A stretch of DNA of 64,000 nucleotides from Branchiostoma floridae. Lineage: Eukaryota; Chordata; Leptocardii; Amphioxiformes; Branchiostomatidae. Below, in pieces: positions 12,766-64,000 of the stretch (position 1 is its first letter; the number at the start of each line of letters is the position of its first letter). The DNA lies in NCBI RefSeq assembly GCF_000003815.2, contig NC_049979.1:7792217-7856216 (forward strand), read 5' to 3'. Made by a program: the position numbers and the translations under genes. A model generated the notes under the pieces. That model was given only the letters and a program-made list of their open reading frames with translations, did no database searches and was not told where the DNA came from.

Positions 12766-15700
12766 CTACGTATGTCTGAATCTCCGGTTGAACTGGTGCA
12801 AGCGTTTGAGCCACTGTCTCCAGTAATGCTCTGACAGTGCAGGAGGTAGCAGGTGGGCGTGACCTTTGTCCCCGTTGCCATAGGCGATCACCAGCAGGGC
12901 CTTCTCCACCTGAGAGAGGGAGGCAGAAATTAACCTTTGACATGATACAGATGACATAATACATGTAGCTTGGAGGTGGCATTACAAAATAGAACAAGAA
13001 GAATATCTCATTAAACTCAATTATAAGTATACACAAAATGTAGCTGCTTTGGCAAACACATATCCAGCCTAACAATCTAAAATATTTTCAACTTGTCACT
13101 CTATCCTTGTCATTATCTTTCCACAGCTTCTTAGAATTTTTCAGTTTGGACCCTCAATTGATGTTCTGCATCTTTTCTTGTTTATTTCTAGAGACCAGCA
13201 CTTTTACCTTTCCAATTTCGAGTGGACCCACCTACCTGAAAACCATAATTGTCATCATAGTTCAGAGCACCCATGTAGGCTGCCACCTGCAGAGGGATGT
13301 CGTAGCACTGCTTCAGGGTCGGCTTCAGCCGCTTGGAGGTTTTCCAGTCAACTAGGCACCACTGGCCCCTATACAGAACAGACAAATACTTTAAAAACTA
13401 GAAAGGCCGACATTTGCTTGAGAGCAAATACAGCATATTTCAGCCATCTCCCTCATGCAACAATAGGCCTTGAGGTCGTTGACCCCTTTGGCCATTCAAA
13501 AATGACCAAAAAACCCACAAATATATCATTTTAAAGTGGTCCATGCCAAAAAATATACATGGGTCATTTGAATAAATATCTAGAGCACCCCTTTACCAAT
13601 TTACGGGTCATTAGGTTGTAAATCGAGGGAACAGGAGCCAAAAATGTCAAAATTTTGTCAAAAAATGGCCATAAAATCGCAAAATTAAGCATTTGTTGTA
13701 CCGTATGGGAAAACTTTTATTGAATTTATGTGCACATAATTGAAGGGCACTTTTATACCAAATTTCAGATCATTTGGTTGTAAAACGAGGCTACAGGAGC
13801 CAAAAATGTCCTTTTTTGGTCAAAAAATGGCCAAAAATCGCAAAATTAAGTATTTTGTTGTACCGTATGGGAAAACTTTTATTGAATTTATGTGCACATA
13901 ATTGAAGGGCACTTTTATACCAAATTTCAGATCATTTGGTTGTAAAACGAGGCTGCAGGAGCCAAAAATGTCCTTTTTTGGTCAAAAAATCGCAAAATTA
14001 AGCATTTTGTTGTACCGTATGGGAAAACTTTTATTGAATTTATGTGCACATAATTGAAGAGCACTTTTATACCAAATTTCAGATCATTTGGTTGTAAAAC
14101 GAGGCTACAGGGGCCAAAAATGTCCTTTTTTGGTCAAAAAATGGCCAAAAATCGCAAAATTAAGCATTTTGTTGTACCGTATGCCAAAACTGTTATTGAA
14201 TCTAGGTGAGCATATGATCAAGGCACCTCTTATCAAATTTCATGTCATTCGGCTGTAATACCAGGGTACAGGAGCCCGAAATATACATAAAAATTGACAA
14301 TAACCTCAATAAAATCATTTTAAAGGCAGATATGAAAAAAATGAAAAAAACACCTGAGGGTATTGGCTTACTCTACCCTTGTGCCAAATTTCAAGTCAAT
14401 CGGTTAAAAAATGGCGGAGTTGATTCGATTTGAAGATTTGACAGGAGAAAGAAAGAAAGAAAGAAACATTACGAATACAATATATTTCACCATACCTATG
14501 GTATGGCTGAAATATAATTAACAACAAATGAGTAAATACAGTCTAGGTTTCAAAACATTTAGGCTATTGAAGCAAATATCCAATGATCTTTACAAAATTA
14601 AGTTTTTTCATTTTCTCTTAGCATTCTGAATTGCTTGCGTGTCAGAGCAACTTTGGATCGGATGAGGTGCATGTCACAATAAAGTTTTCTGCAAGACAAT
14701 TGTTGAAAAGTTTACAATAATTTTCAGTAGCCTTATAGTATTGGTTGTTACATTACAGATTCAGATCATATTTTCACCTGTATTTGGCTACACAGTCCAG
14801 AATGCCCCCATACTGCAGCTCTGGGTGTTTCACAACACTCTCTACAACACTGACATCTGAGATGTCAGCTAAGATGTGCTGGATGCTGGCCCAGTGGCCC
14901 TGGTTCTCTTCAGGGATAGTCAGGTCTCTCTCAGGAGTTCCTGTCAGAAGGGCATCGATGGCTGTGTGGATGGTCTCGCCCTCCTTAAAGGTGTCTGCGG
15001 GGCAGTGAACAAATTTCAATGTTAAAAAAAATGATGATTGACAAGATTTCAAAGNNNNNNNNNNNNNNNNNNNNNNNNNNNNNNNNNNNNNNNNNNNNNN
15101 NNNNNNNNNNNNNNNNNNNNNNNNNNNNNNNNNNNNNNNNNNNNNNNNNNNNNNNNNNNGACGACAAGCCGCGCCCCGATTGTAGCTTTCATCATTATGC
15201 AACGAAAAACGAAGTTTCATTACAGTGGTATGTACCAAAGTGCTGTATTTTGTCATAGAAAAAATAATATCAGAGCCAATAAAAATGATGACGTCATCAA
15301 TTTGGCCCCCAAAAAATCAGATTTAGAATTCTTTAATGCCCATCTATCAACATTCGTTACGGCTCCATTCTGTCTTAATTCATTAATAAGAAAACAGTTG
15401 AAGGTCAAAATGCCAATTTAGCCAACCGAGATACCTTAATACTTATAAGCTCTCTCAAAGTGACTCACTTGTCACCTATCAGGAAAACTATACCTTACCT
15501 TCCTGCAGCTTTTTGAAGCCTTCTTCTCCCAGCTCACTAATCATTCGTGCCTTCCATCTCTCCAGGACAAGCACGCTCTCAGGTGGCATGGTCTTCCTTA
15601 ATATGGACCCCACACTGGGCATGCCCAGATCAGGGACACTGTCTCCAGTCTCCACGTCGATCCTTCTCTCTGGTTTGACTGTCATGGGAGTTTCCTGGAC

Positions 15701-58085: not shown

Positions 58086-58825
58086 TCTTACTTTCTGTTC
58101 AAAAGAGTTTCCTCACTTCCAATAATCTCATACTCAGACACAAAGAAACCGGAATATAGACTTTTTGGCAAAAGTTAACCAAACCTGAAGACACTTCTAT
58201 AAAACTCTTAATTTTATAACAAACTTCTCTGCTCATTTGCATTTTACATTGGTATCATTGATACTTTCCCACTGTTTCCAACATATACTGACAAATGTAT
58301 CTTGTAGCCTGAGTGTCATCCTAGTCAGCTTACCTGGGGTATGGGAGCCCCGGTATCTACAGCCTACATGGCTTTTGTATGGCTCAAAACTTAATTTATG
58401 GGAGCAAAAATGATAAGATCTTTACAGATATACAGTACTTCCCTGGCCCAGAATACTAGGCTATGAAATACAAAACAGGTTACCATTTCAAGATCATTTA
58501 TTGCATGCAATTACAACTTGAGTGTGCTTATAGAACATATGACATATATACTTAAGTGAGTCAACTATTGTACTTCCAGCTCATTAGGCAACTGCATAAA
58601 ACACTGACATATACATGTATCTGCTTATGTACACAGATACAAGTTTTGAGCTCTATTTGGAAGACAAAACTTGCGACATTTCATTGTGACATTGGGTCTT
58701 CAAGCTTTCATTTCTACTCTAGATATAAAAATAGCACCTGAAACAATTGATACCCTAAGGCTTTGGCCTTTGCAATTAAATTACAAGTACAAATTCATAC
58801 AGGTGTGGTCTTATTGAATCAGGTA
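58086..58825. other. Intergenic sequence
   Basis: Nothing recognisable was found between the LINE tail and the nested fold-back element. Confidence 0.5.
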
Positions 58826-59707
58826 CGAGGGGTGATCAATAAGTTATCGGCCTCACCAAGAAATAATAAGCACAACTCAGATTTTGAGGCACAACTTTAT
58901 AGTATTAAGCCTTTTATCAATATCCTCCAAATTTCAAATCATTGGAGTCATTACTTTTCAGGCATTCGTTTTTTCTAAATTAGAAGGTAAGTGGCGAGAA
59001 AAAGAAGGGTGAAGTGTGATGAGACAATTTGACCCGCAAATCTCAGGTTGCAGATGAATTGTCCACTTTTTTTTTTCGTTTTCCCTTACCTAACGTTACT
59101 GGGTGTCACCTGCAACGTAATGATCACAATAATTTGAATTTTGGTACACATTTATATAAGACTTTATACATGTACGTGGGGTTTTCAATAAGTCCTCGGC
59201 TTTACCGAGGAATAATAAGTACAGCTCAGATTTTGAAGCATAAATGTCAAGTATAAAGTCTTATATAAATATGTACCAAAATTCAAATTATTGTGCTCAT
59301 TACTTTGCAGGCGACACCCAGTAATGTTAGGTAAGGGAGAACGAAAAAAATGGGACAATTGACCTGACCTGAGGTGTGCGATTGAACTTGCGCTGCTGGA
59401 AGTCAGACACCCAATTCTTTTTGCTTCAAATAACAAGAGAATCATTATCAAACATTTTGACAATGTCTTTTGTTAATTTACGGCACGGGGAACTCGACCC
59501 ACACATGTCTGATTACAACTCACGCCACTTTTTCCTCGCCACTTACCTTCTGATTTGCAAAAAACGAATGCCTGTAAAGTAATGACTGCATTGATTTGAA
59601 ATTTGAAGGATATTGATAAAAGGCTCTATACTATGAAGTTGTGCCATAAAATTTGAGTTGTGCTTATTATTTCTTGGTGAGGCCGAAAACTTATTGATCA
59701 CCCCTCG
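58826..59707. mobile_element. Mariner-like fold-back element with a related element nested inside
   Basis: The ends cgaggggtgatcaataagtt and its reverse complement are flanked by TA (58824-58825 and 59708-59709). The outer inverted repeats run for roughly 150 bases with changes. In the middle, about 59060-59345 forms a second, inner inverted repeat containing cttacctaacgttactgggt on one side and its diverged complement on the other. The segment starting cgtggggttttcaataag (59175) is a diverged relative of the outer end. No transposase remains. Confidence 0.8.
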
Positions 59708-59823
59708 TATATGTTTAGCATTTAGCCTTCACCCCATACTTATGTGTTTAGTATCAGTCCACTCATCATAATCCTGTGAATAGTTTACAGTCAAATAGCA
59801 TACAAGATGAAAGCAGATGATCC

Positions 59824-61651
59824 TTACTGCACCCCCTCCATTTCCATTGTAGCTTCCTGTAGAAACATACATCACCAGCTTATTATTCAACTGTACATAA
59901 ATCACCTGATATCACACAAACATCAAGAACAGTCTACAAAAAAAAGTACAAGCACAATGATCAAATTTGTGTAAAAATTATGTATAAACCAACCATCATT
60001 AAGTCTTGTCATGGAAAACTTAACTAATTTGCAGGCAATTGACAGTTGTGTAAATATCAAATTGCAAAAGTTCTTTTGCATATTCTAAAGTTCAATATAA
60101 CACAAAAAGCAGATCAACAAAAAAGAACATTGGTCTACCTGCTCCATCTCCTCTGCAGGTTGTTGTGCTTCAGGAGCAGGCTGTTCCCGGTGGTTCTGCT
60201 TCTGTGTTGGCTTTTTGGCTCCCTGTTTCTTTGGTGGCTTTTTATATCTAGTGTGCTCAAATCCCCGTGGAGCCCCTCTGCCAAAACATATATGTCTGGG
60301 CAATCTACAGGGAAGCAACAATGATAGGATTTAGATAAGGTATCAAGAGATACCATGACTGAGAGTTCCTGCATCTTGGGGCAGCTATGACTCTTGGAAC
60401 ACTTAAAGTTATGGAAAGAAAGTTGAAAGTTATTTTTACCTTTACCTGGATCTCTCCAATACAACAGAATTATTATGATAGATAAAAATGCTTGAGAGTG
60501 CAAGCGAACAGATACAGAAGTAACTGCTCCCTTTACACAAGTCTCCTAGATTCTGAGGTGCATTGTAACAATCTAATCTTTTTTTCCAGAATCTCCCAAT
60601 ATTGAAGATATCTTAGTCACCAATGCCAAAGGTTCCAGAACATGTATATATGCTCACCTGTACTGTCTGTGAGTGGTATCAGCTGACTGTGTGGTTCCTG
60701 CGGACACTGCAGGTGCTGATTCCATGACAGCTGCAGCTTCAGCAGGTGCTGCTATGTCCATGGCATCATCTGCCCTGGTATCCTCAGACTTGGCATGGGA
60801 AGATGGGTTTTTCTTTGCACCGGCCTTATCATCATGGGCATTTCTGTATGAAAAAGAATTTTTTTTAATAATGCTGACAGAAACTTAATAGTGTATACAG
60901 ACTTCAATAAAAATCCAGTAATTTTATCAAATGTCTGCAGCTGTGTTATCTTACCTGTCCTTTTTCCTAGGTTTATCAAACTTGAAACTGGGTGGATACT
61001 TGTGTACTTGCACCATATGTCTTCTCCTGTCGTGAGCATTGCGGAAGGTGTCAGGACAGATTTCCAGCAGGCACTGGTACTGCAACACAAACATGGTAAA
61101 TCTAAATAAATAAATAAACACATATTTAGCAATAAAAGTTTCCTTGGTTTTAACAAGGAGCTTTTTAGATAAAATTTTTCTTTGCAAATAATGGAATATA
61201 TCAGTCATTAATTCACAATATCTTTGATCCTTACCATATTTTGTCTCTCACTCATCAATTCAAACAGGGAGTCATGCCACTCCAACAGGTGTATGTCCAG
61301 TAGGTAGGCTGATGGCAGCGACCTCTTGCAGACTGCACACACATTACGGTGCACAGCATTGTAGTGTGTTTCAAAGGCTGTGATGCTGTTGAAATATTTC
61401 CTACATCCAAGTATCTGGCATTGAAACTCATCAATTGTTGCCGGAATCTCTCCAGCTTTTTCTGGAGGCATCTGCTTCACCACAATATTGCACACAACTT
61501 CGTCCTGGGGACTGGTGTCACCAGTACAGAGTTTCTTGGTTTCCGGCTGGAAGCTCCAGGAGAGGTCATCGTCCTCCATAACAAGACCAATCCGTCTCTT
61601 GCGAGGACGTGAGGTAGTCTCCATACTTGCTGCCATCCTTTCTTCTAGCAT
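59824..61651 (-). CDS. ZNF511: Zinc finger protein 511
   Basis: Five exons are placed: 61235-61651, 60955-61079, 60658-60843, 60139-60304 and 59824-59856. They sum to 927 nt (308 residues; human about 250-260), all in phase. The C2H2 fingers match human ZNF511: CQILGCRKYFNSITAFETH, CAVCKRSLPSAYLLDIHLLEWH and CLLEICPDTFRNAHDRRRHM, separated by DSLFELMSERQNMYQ. Then come YPPSFKFDKPRKKDR and the conserved LPRHICFGRGAPRGF near the end. A basic PRKRR near the N-terminus could act in nuclear import. The last exon encodes only EATMEMEGVQ. The family is probably nuclear and nucleic-acid binding; its exact role is not established. Upstream, 103 bases away, lies a tRNA-bearing mini-LTR element. Confidence 0.94.
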
Positions 61652-61754
61652 TTAGGTTCACTGGCAATTACTAATTTAAAGAAATTTCTTGGCTGCTACC
61701 CATCCTACAAAAACAACAAAAGTGAAGGATGCCATGTACACATGCCATTAGTAC

Positions 61755-61930
61755 TGTAACAGTGGTGTTCAAGGACTGCTAAACCGAAGACGCCTAACGG
61801 CTTAAGCCTTTTGGCCGAACGGTTTGTACGTTCGATTTGTGATCCGGCTGCCCGGGTTCGGCGCGGGTTCGAATCCCGGGAGTCGGGGCGTTGTTTCTTT
61901 CTGTTCTTACTCGCCCCTCGTATTTCTACA
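61755..61930 (+). repeat. LTR 1 with tRNA-like region
   Basis: It is 176 bases and nearly identical to LTR 3. It contains A-box-like tggccgaacgg, the loop sequence tttgtga, an extra gcccgggttcggc insert, and B-box gggttcgaatccc in a T-arm-like stem. Confidence 0.85.
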
Positions 61931-62032
61931 ATGGTTCCCATGCCGGCCCTGTGAGTAACAGGCTAGTATGTGCCACACAGGGATGTCGATCTCGGAGATT
62001 CGAGGACGAATCTTGAAGAAAAGGGGGAGTAG

Positions 62033-62200
62033 TGTAACAGTGGTGTTTAAGTACTGCCTACCGTCCTTGCCCAAACGCACTAGTGCTTTTGTGGCGACGG
62101 TGATAGCGTTCGTGATTTGTGATCTGCCGACCCCGGTTCGATTCCGGGTAGGGGGCATGTTGTTTCTTTCTGTTCTTACTCGCCCCTCTGAATTTCTACA
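62033..62200 (+). repeat. LTR 2 with a different tRNA-like region
   Basis: It is 168 bases. The first and last ~15-40 bases match LTRs 1 and 3, but the middle differs: A-box-like tggcgacggtg, loop tttgtga, and T arm ccgg-ttcgatt-ccgg. The outer LTRs are a pair and this one is from another lineage. Confidence 0.85.
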
Positions 62201-62304
62201 ATGGTTCCCACGCCGGCCCTGTGAGTAACAGGCTAGTATGTGCCACACAGGGATGTCGATCTCGGAGATTCGAGGACGAATCTTGAAAAGAAAAGGGGGA
62301 GTAG

Positions 62305-62480
62305 TGTAACAGTGGTGTTCAAGGACTGCTAAACCGAAGACGCCTAACGGCTTAAGCCTTTTGGCCGAACGGTTTGCACGTTCGATTTGTGATCCGGCTG
62401 CCCGGGTTCGGCGCGGGTTCGAATCCCGGGAGTCGGGGTGTTGTTTCTTTCTGTTCTTACTCGCCCCTCGTATTTCTACA
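62305..62480 (+). repeat. LTR 3 with tRNA-like region
   Basis: It is 176 bases and differs from LTR 1 at only about two positions (gtacg/gcacg and ggcg/ggtg). This implies recent insertion or recombination. Confidence 0.85.
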
Positions 62481-62484
62481 GTAC

Positions 62485-63236: not shown

Positions 63237-63360
63237 ATGGCGACAATTTCTTTCGGTGTAGGGAGCAGAGCTGTGAGTCCGGTAGTCGGGAACAGGCGGC
63301 CGCTTGGGGAACTAGACGCGCCCGTACGCGAGATGAGACACCACTCACTGCAAAATATTG
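63237..63360 (+). CDS. First coding exon of an unidentified gene (continues beyond the window)
   Basis: The start lies in atggcgac, a context shared by other genes here. The exon encodes 41 residues plus one base (MATISFGVGSRAVSPVVGNR, then RPLGELDAPVREMRHHSLQNI) and ends at a strong donor (ttg|gtaagt). The same donor-like string recurs 20 bases later. No domain is recognisable in so short a piece and I do not recognise the family. The rest of the window (63361-64000) would be its first intron. Confidence 0.55.
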
Positions 63361-64000
63361 GTAAGTTATGTATCAGCATTGGTAAGTTGGAAAATAAGCG
63401 TCAGGCGTTGTTGTTTGCTTGTTGTTAGTCTCGGACGCTCCTTGTTCGAGGGTTGCTACATACTGTCTTTGAATGCTTGTTGATATGTGTAAGTAAGGTT
63501 CGTCTACCAATTTTATTTTAGTGTATGAATTATGGTGCACGTACCAAAACTTTCTCAAATGCCCCAGAATGGAACCTTCTTGGTGTAATTTTAAACCTGT
63601 GGCATCTTTTTTTTCTCAGCTACTTGTAGCAGCTTGATTGATATGCAAATCCATTGATTAAAAACCCGCGAAAGAGGGTTTCGCCCTGTTGTGTTTTTTA
63701 ATCCTCACCAGTGTGTAACGTATCACCTCCCTGCCCCCTCGCCGTGGGTCCAATCTGTGTGTTTCTTTTACCATTGTCTCGTACCTTTATAATTGCTTTC
63801 ACACGTCTTAGTTGAGTAGAGTAGAGTTCTTCTGGTGCAGTTTTAGCTGATTTGCCTTTCATGTAAACAAATTGTTTTCTGATTATAAAGTTGGTTCTTT
63901 ATACAATGAGGCAAGGAGGTTAAAGTCATGATTATACATTTTGTGGATTGTTGTTTCTTTGCTGAGATTTTCTGAGAAAGAATGGCTCTCGTCTTGGATC

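Follow-up and report, generated by a model that had tools for sequence, protein, structure and literature searches.

How could an element without genes, made of three long terminal repeats (LTRs) around two short spacers, have multiplied in the lancelet genome, and does a tRNA-type promoter within its LTRs take part? The element occupies positions 61755-62480 of the window, the whole 64,000-nucleotide stretch of Branchiostoma floridae DNA analysed here. Its outline agrees with the original prediction in coordinates, in the three LTRs with TG...CA ends, in the two short spacers with candidate primer sites and purine tracts, and in the flanking GTAC. The order is LTR-A, spacer, LTR-B, spacer, and LTR-A, measuring 176, 102, 168, 104, and 176 bp, respectively, with the following features.

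61751..61754, unstranded: target-site duplication GTAC, left copy, identical to 62481-62484
61755..61930, plus strand: LTR 1, type A, 176 bp, TG...CA
61809..61812, plus strand: T4 run, the sole one of LTR 1 (positions 55-58), touching the A box; candidate Pol III terminator
61812..61822, plus strand: A box TGGCCGAACGG of LTR 1, strict consensus match
61866..61876, plus strand: B box GGTTCGAATCC of LTR 1, inside a T-arm-like hairpin
61931..62032, plus strand: spacer 1
61932..61946, plus strand: primer-binding site of spacer 1, near-complement of the tRNA-Glu 3' end
62016..62032, plus strand: polypurine tract AAGAAAAGGGGGAGTAG of spacer 1
62033..62200, plus strand: LTR 2 (middle), type B, 168 bp, without a strict A box
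62087..62090, plus strand: T4 run of LTR 2 (positions 55-58)
62135..62145, plus strand: B box GGTTCGATTCC of LTR 2
62201..62304, plus strand: spacer 2, with its primer site at 62202-62216 and a purine tract at its 3' end
62305..62480, plus strand: LTR 3, type A, 174/176 identical to LTR 1
62362..62372, plus strand: A box of LTR 3
62416..62426, plus strand: B box of LTR 3
62481..62484, unstranded: target-site duplication GTAC, right copy

All three LTRs are opened by TGTAACAG and closed by TTTCTACA. Each spacer begins with one base followed by the primer site TGGTTCCCA(T/C)GCCGG, and ends in a purine run that precedes the next TGTAACAG. While the outer LTRs agree at 174 of 176 positions, the middle one belongs to another subtype, with 139 identical bases among 149 aligned and 46 gap columns, a point absent from the original prediction. 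Being short and non-coding, and having LTRs with a primer site and a purine tract, the window copy is a gene-less LTR retrotransposon of the TRIM type; the longest ATG ORF overlapping it encodes 86 aa and spans spacer and LTR. Its primer sites are one or two bases off the common tRNA-Glu(CTC), and a rarer tRNA-Glu gene variant (C12:7330639) would fit the site of spacer 2 over 15 nt if the last base is A. As to its surroundings, the element lies ~100 bp upstream of the opening ATG of an opposite-strand C2H2 zinc-finger-like ORF (window 61211-61651, minus strand; zf-met 25.1 bits, cut-off 21.2), in the gap between this ORF and a plus-strand ORF at 63237-63428 that has no Pfam match; the gap is perhaps a shared promoter region. 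Elsewhere in the window, nested inverted repeats at 58817-59716 (187 nt, 90%; 103 nt, 93%) are probably a DNA-transposon relic, and a unit of ~160 bp stands in four tandem copies at 13530-14214.

A search of the genome (513 Mb, 431 contigs) with a pattern for the LTR 3' end returned 628 places at up to two mismatches, against none for the reversed-pattern control. Ninety loci were parsed by script, comprising the 30 best element matches, the first 30 of the 628 LTR-end places (29 on contig C1 and one on C2), and the 30 best spacer matches; because it was taken largely from best matches, this sample leans to young copies. It gave 74 copies with both outer ends, or 34 distinct insertions once copies sharing flanks were counted as one. 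Using an LTR-end pattern that includes the GTATTTCTACA tail, we found an exact 4-bp target duplication, of the kind left by an integrase, in 28 of the 34, whereas 2000 reshuffled flank pairings averaged 1.06 and never exceeded 5. The duplication is absent from the remaining six (L013, L032, L033, L055, L066, and L071). Broken down by LTR number, it flanks 19 of 23 two-LTR copies, all eight three-LTR copies, and the single four-LTR copy, but neither of two solo LTRs. Copies that end in TG...CA and duplications at most insertions are what was found on the two points where the original prediction was most exposed. The family, with several hundred LTRs and some copies whose LTRs are identical, has been recently active.

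Of 28 copies whose outer LTRs were compared, 11 have identical ones; L065, L069, and L084 among the 28 represent one insertion, and L005 was omitted, its LTRs being unparsable. In L003, L006, and L008, LTR 1 equals LTR 3 exactly and LTR 2 is different. Identical outer LTRs around a differing middle one indicate reverse transcription of a three-LTR RNA, which also explains the A-B-A order in the window; nested insertion was rejected as its cause since the outer LTRs match each other, as they do in these three copies. Other copies have unlike outer LTRs. The 5' LTR of L002 and of L004/L082 carries another tail, and a C-spacer-A insertion with a TTCC duplication and unlike LTRs recurs in L012, L014-L023, L025-L027, and L029. 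These pairs (the L014 group, L002, and L004/L082) are not the product of simple LTR replication and speak against it as their origin; they likely stem from recombination between co-copied RNAs. The C-spacer-A insertion rides inside a larger repeat, with ~0.9 kb of common flank on each side in most copies, and was rejected as proof of non-LTR copying because with ~900 bp of flank in common it is one insertion carried along. The spacers vary as well. At about 290-1290 of L057 the spacer has grown into a minisatellite of ~31-bp units from spacer positions 19-48, in more than 20 copies. Inserts unlike each other, of about 0.85 and 1.17 kb, lie at almost one position in the spacers of L044 and L060, each starting at spacer base ~26 and followed by spacer that resumes at ~19-20; as a coding parent they were rejected, with frames only up to 110 aa seen.

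Does the LTR contain a promoter of the tRNA type? Subtypes A, B, and C and older ones share their first ~15 bp and, apart from a variable tail, their last ~45 bp, and differ in the middle. The original prediction placed an A box and a B box with T-arm-like stems in every LTR. The B box is indeed present in all three window LTRs, and in types A, A2, B, and C, beyond chance: of 2000 dinucleotide shuffles per type, its pattern turns up in 14 for A, 5 for B, and 9 for C. The strict A box (TRGYNNANNNG), however, occurs in the window only in LTRs 1 and 3 (type A), and in the family only in types A and A2; types B and C and the old types lack it, the type B middle LTR has none even at one mismatch, and the LTR B fold is no better than that of shuffles (z 0.45). 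Together, a B box and an A box with up to one mismatch, 25-75 nt apart, arise in 3, 0, and 1 of 2000 shuffles of A, B, and C. In the window LTRs the Rfam tRNA model gives no match at E<=10, and ARAGORN at default settings calls no tRNA in the window or on the LTRs tested. A tRNA gene array was rejected, as the window has no tRNA at standard thresholds.

Among relatives, the tRNA model RF00005 (cut-off 29) scores 35.6 bits on the LTR of L085, 29.0 on L050, 28.2 on L051, and 20.2 on L057 over positions 8-63, which comprise the D, anticodon, and T arms without the acceptor stem, and 21.7 bits on L044 over positions 1-71. Also among the nine sources scored, no RF00005 match was found on the LTRs of L032, L033, and L063, and L072 gave just a sub-threshold tRNA-Sec. 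With ARAGORN set to 90%, a tRNA is called in types A, B, and C and in 6, 1, and 0 of 500 of their shuffles; a second C copy was counted on shuffles only (2 of 500 called), and the laxer 80% setting called 18-59 of 500 shuffles. Applied to 64 short bodies, in which most of the acceptor region is absent, it called ten, seven as Thr(TGT) and three as Asn. Minimum-energy folds show three arms in L051 and L057, not in the window LTRs. A covariation count on the tRNA-like body was dropped because T-loop length varies among subtypes. The RF00005, ARAGORN, and fold results together argue that the family is tRNA-derived and that the window subtypes are worn versions retaining the B box.

We also looked at where a Pol III transcript might stop and start. 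The sole T4 run of the LTR in types A, B, and C lies at positions 55-58 and in type A touches the A box (58); the older LTRs of L033 and L057 have T5 at 54, and the spacers read have no T4 run. In type A2, TTTAT replaces T4, with no T4 elsewhere. The LTR instances in the loci, duplicates included, comprise 138 with TTTT, 38 with TTTAT, 7 with TTT, and 3 with TTTTT. Two-LTR copies of type A2 with identical LTRs (L066, L078, and L090) indicate that the T4 stop is not essential. A TTTAT middle LTR, found in four of eight triples (L002, L003, L004/L082, and L006; L005 unparsed) in what is a small and biased count, would fit read-through. On the start, L050 and L051 begin at LTR position 42 by BLAST. 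L114, of another subtype and at another place, begins at 40-42 when compared by eye with the LTR of L009, and at 45 by BLAST against window type B. L051 and L114 continue into the complement of a tRNA, described below, of which L050 retains only the start. Starts near 42 are found in two of five truncated junction copies; L112, L115, and L127 begin elsewhere. With the A-box position at 58, the L051 and L114 starts lie 16-18 nt upstream, as is expected of tRNA-type Pol III genes. The junction starts at LTR 40-42 may thus mark a possible RNA 5' end. A pattern search for further LTR-42 starts (type C) returned only the L050/L051 cluster with a third tandem copy. This locus has LTR copies starting at 42 at C1:26024616, 26033409, and 26042579, ~9 kb apart; the whole tRNA is seen only in L051, and the third copy is known by pattern only.

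The strongest alternative, which we nonetheless consider unlikely, is an ordinary TRIM transcribed by Pol II, its tRNA-like stretch being a chance or relic likeness without promoter function. It would suit the failure of the window LTRs with the Rfam tRNA model, the middle LTR without a strict A box, and the shuffle-like folding of LTR B. Yet the B box persists across four LTR types, L085 exceeds the tRNA-model cut-off, and none of six LTRs checked contains a TATA (TATA[AT]A) or poly(A) (A[AT]TAAA) motif. The two truncated copies that begin 16-18 nt before the A-box position likewise speak against it. We infer that the LTRs are transcribed by Pol III.

What primes reverse transcription emerged while old LTRs were being scored, when Rfam found an opposite-strand tRNA (53.3 bits) beside the LTR of L051. 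It is tRNA-Glu-like, carries CCA, and adjoins the LTR at the expected primer-site position. A pattern made of the LTR end, 6-14 bases, and TGGTTCCCANNCCGGGA, which requires the CCA complement and ~17 nt, matched 25 genome places (control 0) where the LTR end runs into the reverse complement of tRNA-Glu(CTC). We examined 24 of the 25 junctions, leaving out C18:2671691, and took tRNA extents ungapped, as fuzzy matching overstates them. The copy of the 75-nt tRNA complement extends over at least 65 nt in 17 of the 24 and over the full 75/75 without mismatch in five (L112, L116, L119, L122, and L125). All junctions but one pass tRNA nucleotide 18 (23/24), L123 stopping at 17. Past the tRNA, the sequence enters other DNA or rejoins spacer or LTR, the latter found by script in L008, L009, L011, L113, L121, L122, L125, L126, and L130. 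In L008, L009, L011, L119, L126, L128, and L129 a pair of 4-bp duplications encloses the chimera, which was therefore made before integration.

As the pattern contains the CCA complement, CCA is present in the 25 junctions by design; the independent test is the tRNA 71-mer without CCA. It has 21 exact genome places, five of which are known junctions. Twelve of the other 16 were fetched: ten lack CCA and have no LTR sequence in their 15-bp flanks, and two have CCA (L137 and L135). The CCA copy of L137 stands beside clear LTR pieces; next to that of L135, the 15 bp read include only a few LTR-like bases. In L137, an inverted junction, 15 bp of LTR 5' end lead straight into tRNA-Glu-CCA in the sense orientation, which is followed by an LTR end in reverse. 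A search with the primer complement TGGTTCCCACACCGGG gave 53 genome places (control 0), namely 24 known junctions, L135, L137, and 27 more. Ten of these 27 were fetched, and all but L148 and L149 were assigned by eye: L144, L145, L146, and L150 have long tRNA copies and L147 and L151 short ones, and L143/L152 belong to another LTR element. The junctions identify tRNA-Glu as the primer and show that reverse transcription ran on through it.

Could the junctions instead have arisen by insertion next to tRNA genes, or as tRNA retropseudogenes of independent origin? Some LTR elements do target tRNA genes. For one laboratory HIV case, moreover, the authors favour a self-primed tRNA copy, according to the available part of PMC12220202. 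Here, however, the tRNA begins at the start of the spacer's primer site (position and orientation being set by the junction pattern, control 0), and it lies within the pair of 4-bp duplications in the seven copies named above. In addition, the exact 71-mers divide into ten with neither CCA nor LTR sequence in the 15-bp flanks and six, five junctions and L137, with both. We regard this alternative as very improbable. Still less credible is a SINE-like or tandem-repeat family in which a LINE-dependent tRNA-like body is mobile and the 'LTRs' are tandem SINE copies: the tRNA-like core, small size, and tandem arrangement would suit it, but the common boundaries are TG...CA rather than a tRNA body without LTR, which with the 4-bp duplications (28/34 distinct insertions) led us to reject SINE dimers, and it leaves aside the primer site and purine tract, the primer-tRNA copies located at the primer site, and the rebuilt outer LTRs.

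In the part of the review PMC13191261 available to us, plus-strand strong-stop synthesis ends before m1A58, whereas on a tRNA without the modification it continues as far as the tRNA 5' end; the long tRNA-Glu copies match the latter case, and the tRNA-Glu of the host would then lack the m1A58 mark. According to a title in the reference list of PMC5371799, Ty1 does not inherit its primer tRNA.

L143/L152 combine an LTR end ...TCAAATTCTACA with a 20-nt tRNA-Glu primer site. The pattern of this LTR end has 27 matches at up to two mismatches, 12 of them exact (reversed control 5), and two exact matches 4,923 bp apart on C17 delimit a 4.9-kb LTR element (C17:1384640-1389581) whose interior is partly N. 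TATA-like motifs are present in the LTR piece read (L153), a B box is not. The family would be mobilised by a putative autonomous partner, perhaps of the Gypsy type; the 4.9-kb element is known here by its LTR ends and primer site.

The reading we favour, with considerable confidence, is that the window holds a three-LTR copy of a gene-less TRIM family with a tRNA-derived Pol III promoter in its LTRs, a new family of the Helenus kind. To the LTR structure, duplications, rebuilt outer LTRs, tRNA-Glu primer, and whole-tRNA copying seen in the genome, it would add the following course. Pol III would start at LTR ~42, some 16 nt ahead of the A-box position, read U5, the spacer, and the next LTR, and stop at the T4 run (positions 55-58) or beyond. 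Mature tRNA-Glu would anneal to the primer site, and the reverse transcriptase and integrase of a presumed autonomous LTR element would synthesise the cDNA and integrate it, duplicating 4 bp of target. Transcripts passing a middle LTR would yield three-LTR copies, in which reverse transcription would rebuild the outer LTRs from one template and copy the middle one passively, giving A-B-A. The enzyme would sometimes copy the entire tRNA primer rather than halt after 18 nt, perhaps for want of a stop in the tRNA, and the over-long plus strand could join at short homologies, producing LTR-tRNA chimeras still able to integrate.

More tentatively, these elements may be linked further. Pol III itself may define R, starting at LTR ~42 and stopping at the T4 of positions 55-58, with the A box at 58; a 17-nt R would then contain a terminator that is passed over in the 5' LTR but acted on in the 3' LTR. 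In the same proposal, tRNA-Glu(CTC) would offer no effective stop, being, e.g., poorly m1A58-modified, would often be copied whole, and would in this way have seeded the genome with LTR-tRNA chimeras. If true, the combination would be natural proof of a route joining tRNA sequences to retroelements, one that has long been suspected.

The genome keeps reverse-transcription intermediates as fossils, which preserve the identity of the primer, the copying of the whole primer, the rebuilt outer LTRs, the passive middle LTR, and possibly the RNA 5' end. LTR ends with the full cellular primer tRNA attached are a natural record of how such parasites multiply. They also provide a natural series for failed plus-strand transfer, otherwise known, to our knowledge, from single laboratory cases. 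Two questions become testable: can Pol III supply an LTR retrotransposon with its RNA, and by what means does a short Pol III transcript acquire terminal repeats?

How does the family compare with known systems? Laboratory tRNA-provirus chimeras, such as the Colicelli and Goff case as told in PMC12220202, also join a reverse-transcribed mature tRNA with CCA to an LTR end (Gurgo and Franchini 2025). In the available part of that paper each is an isolated case and involves tRNA-Gly, which those viruses do not normally use as primer, whereas here 23 of 24 natural junctions have more than 18 nt of a tRNA-Glu that fits the primer site. Cassandra, in the accessible text of PMC7215508, is likewise a TRIM with a small-RNA-gene promoter in its LTR and arrays of about three LTRs, but it has 5S rRNA instead of tRNA and lives in plants. 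Ajax, in the part of PMC10886601 at hand, is a TRIM whose LTR also holds a Pol III-type promoter stretch, but it has a 5S rRNA fragment, 5-bp duplications, and nemertean hosts.

The closest match is Helenus, described in 2024 from sequence alone (Kojima 2024, PMC10886601) as a TRIM with a tRNA-derived A/B-box stretch in its LTRs and, in animals, 4-bp duplications and 3'-tRNA primers. As presented in the accessible portion of that paper, Helenus resembles the lancelet family in tRNA-derived LTR sequence, primer site, purine tract, and the 4-bp duplications of animal members, in a length range (311-1263 bp) that takes in 458 and 726 bp, in the tandem arrays reported for LTR-11_DR, and in the tRNA-Glu primer of bivalve members. 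The 4-bp duplication and 3'-tRNA primer are both present here; tRNA-derived LTR sequence is recognised in relatives (L085 over the cut-off, L050 at it), the window copy alone giving no match. Differences also exist: lancelets and other cephalochordates are not among the hosts in Table 1 of PMC10886601, three-LTR units have duplications of their own with subtypes mixed within copies, and whole-primer copies are not mentioned for Helenus in the portion available. Among the titles and abstracts listed in our literature searches, none names a tRNA-bearing lancelet TRIM family. The original prediction was thus partly confirmed in its observations and partly supported in its interpretation, and its placement as a TRIM of the Helenus kind agrees with the LTR structure, the duplications, and the tRNA-derived core of relatives. 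Given the match to Helenus, and with no lancelet entry in Table 1 of PMC10886601 or in the titles and abstracts listed, we file the family as a new Helenus member, to which the primer fossils are a surprising addition.
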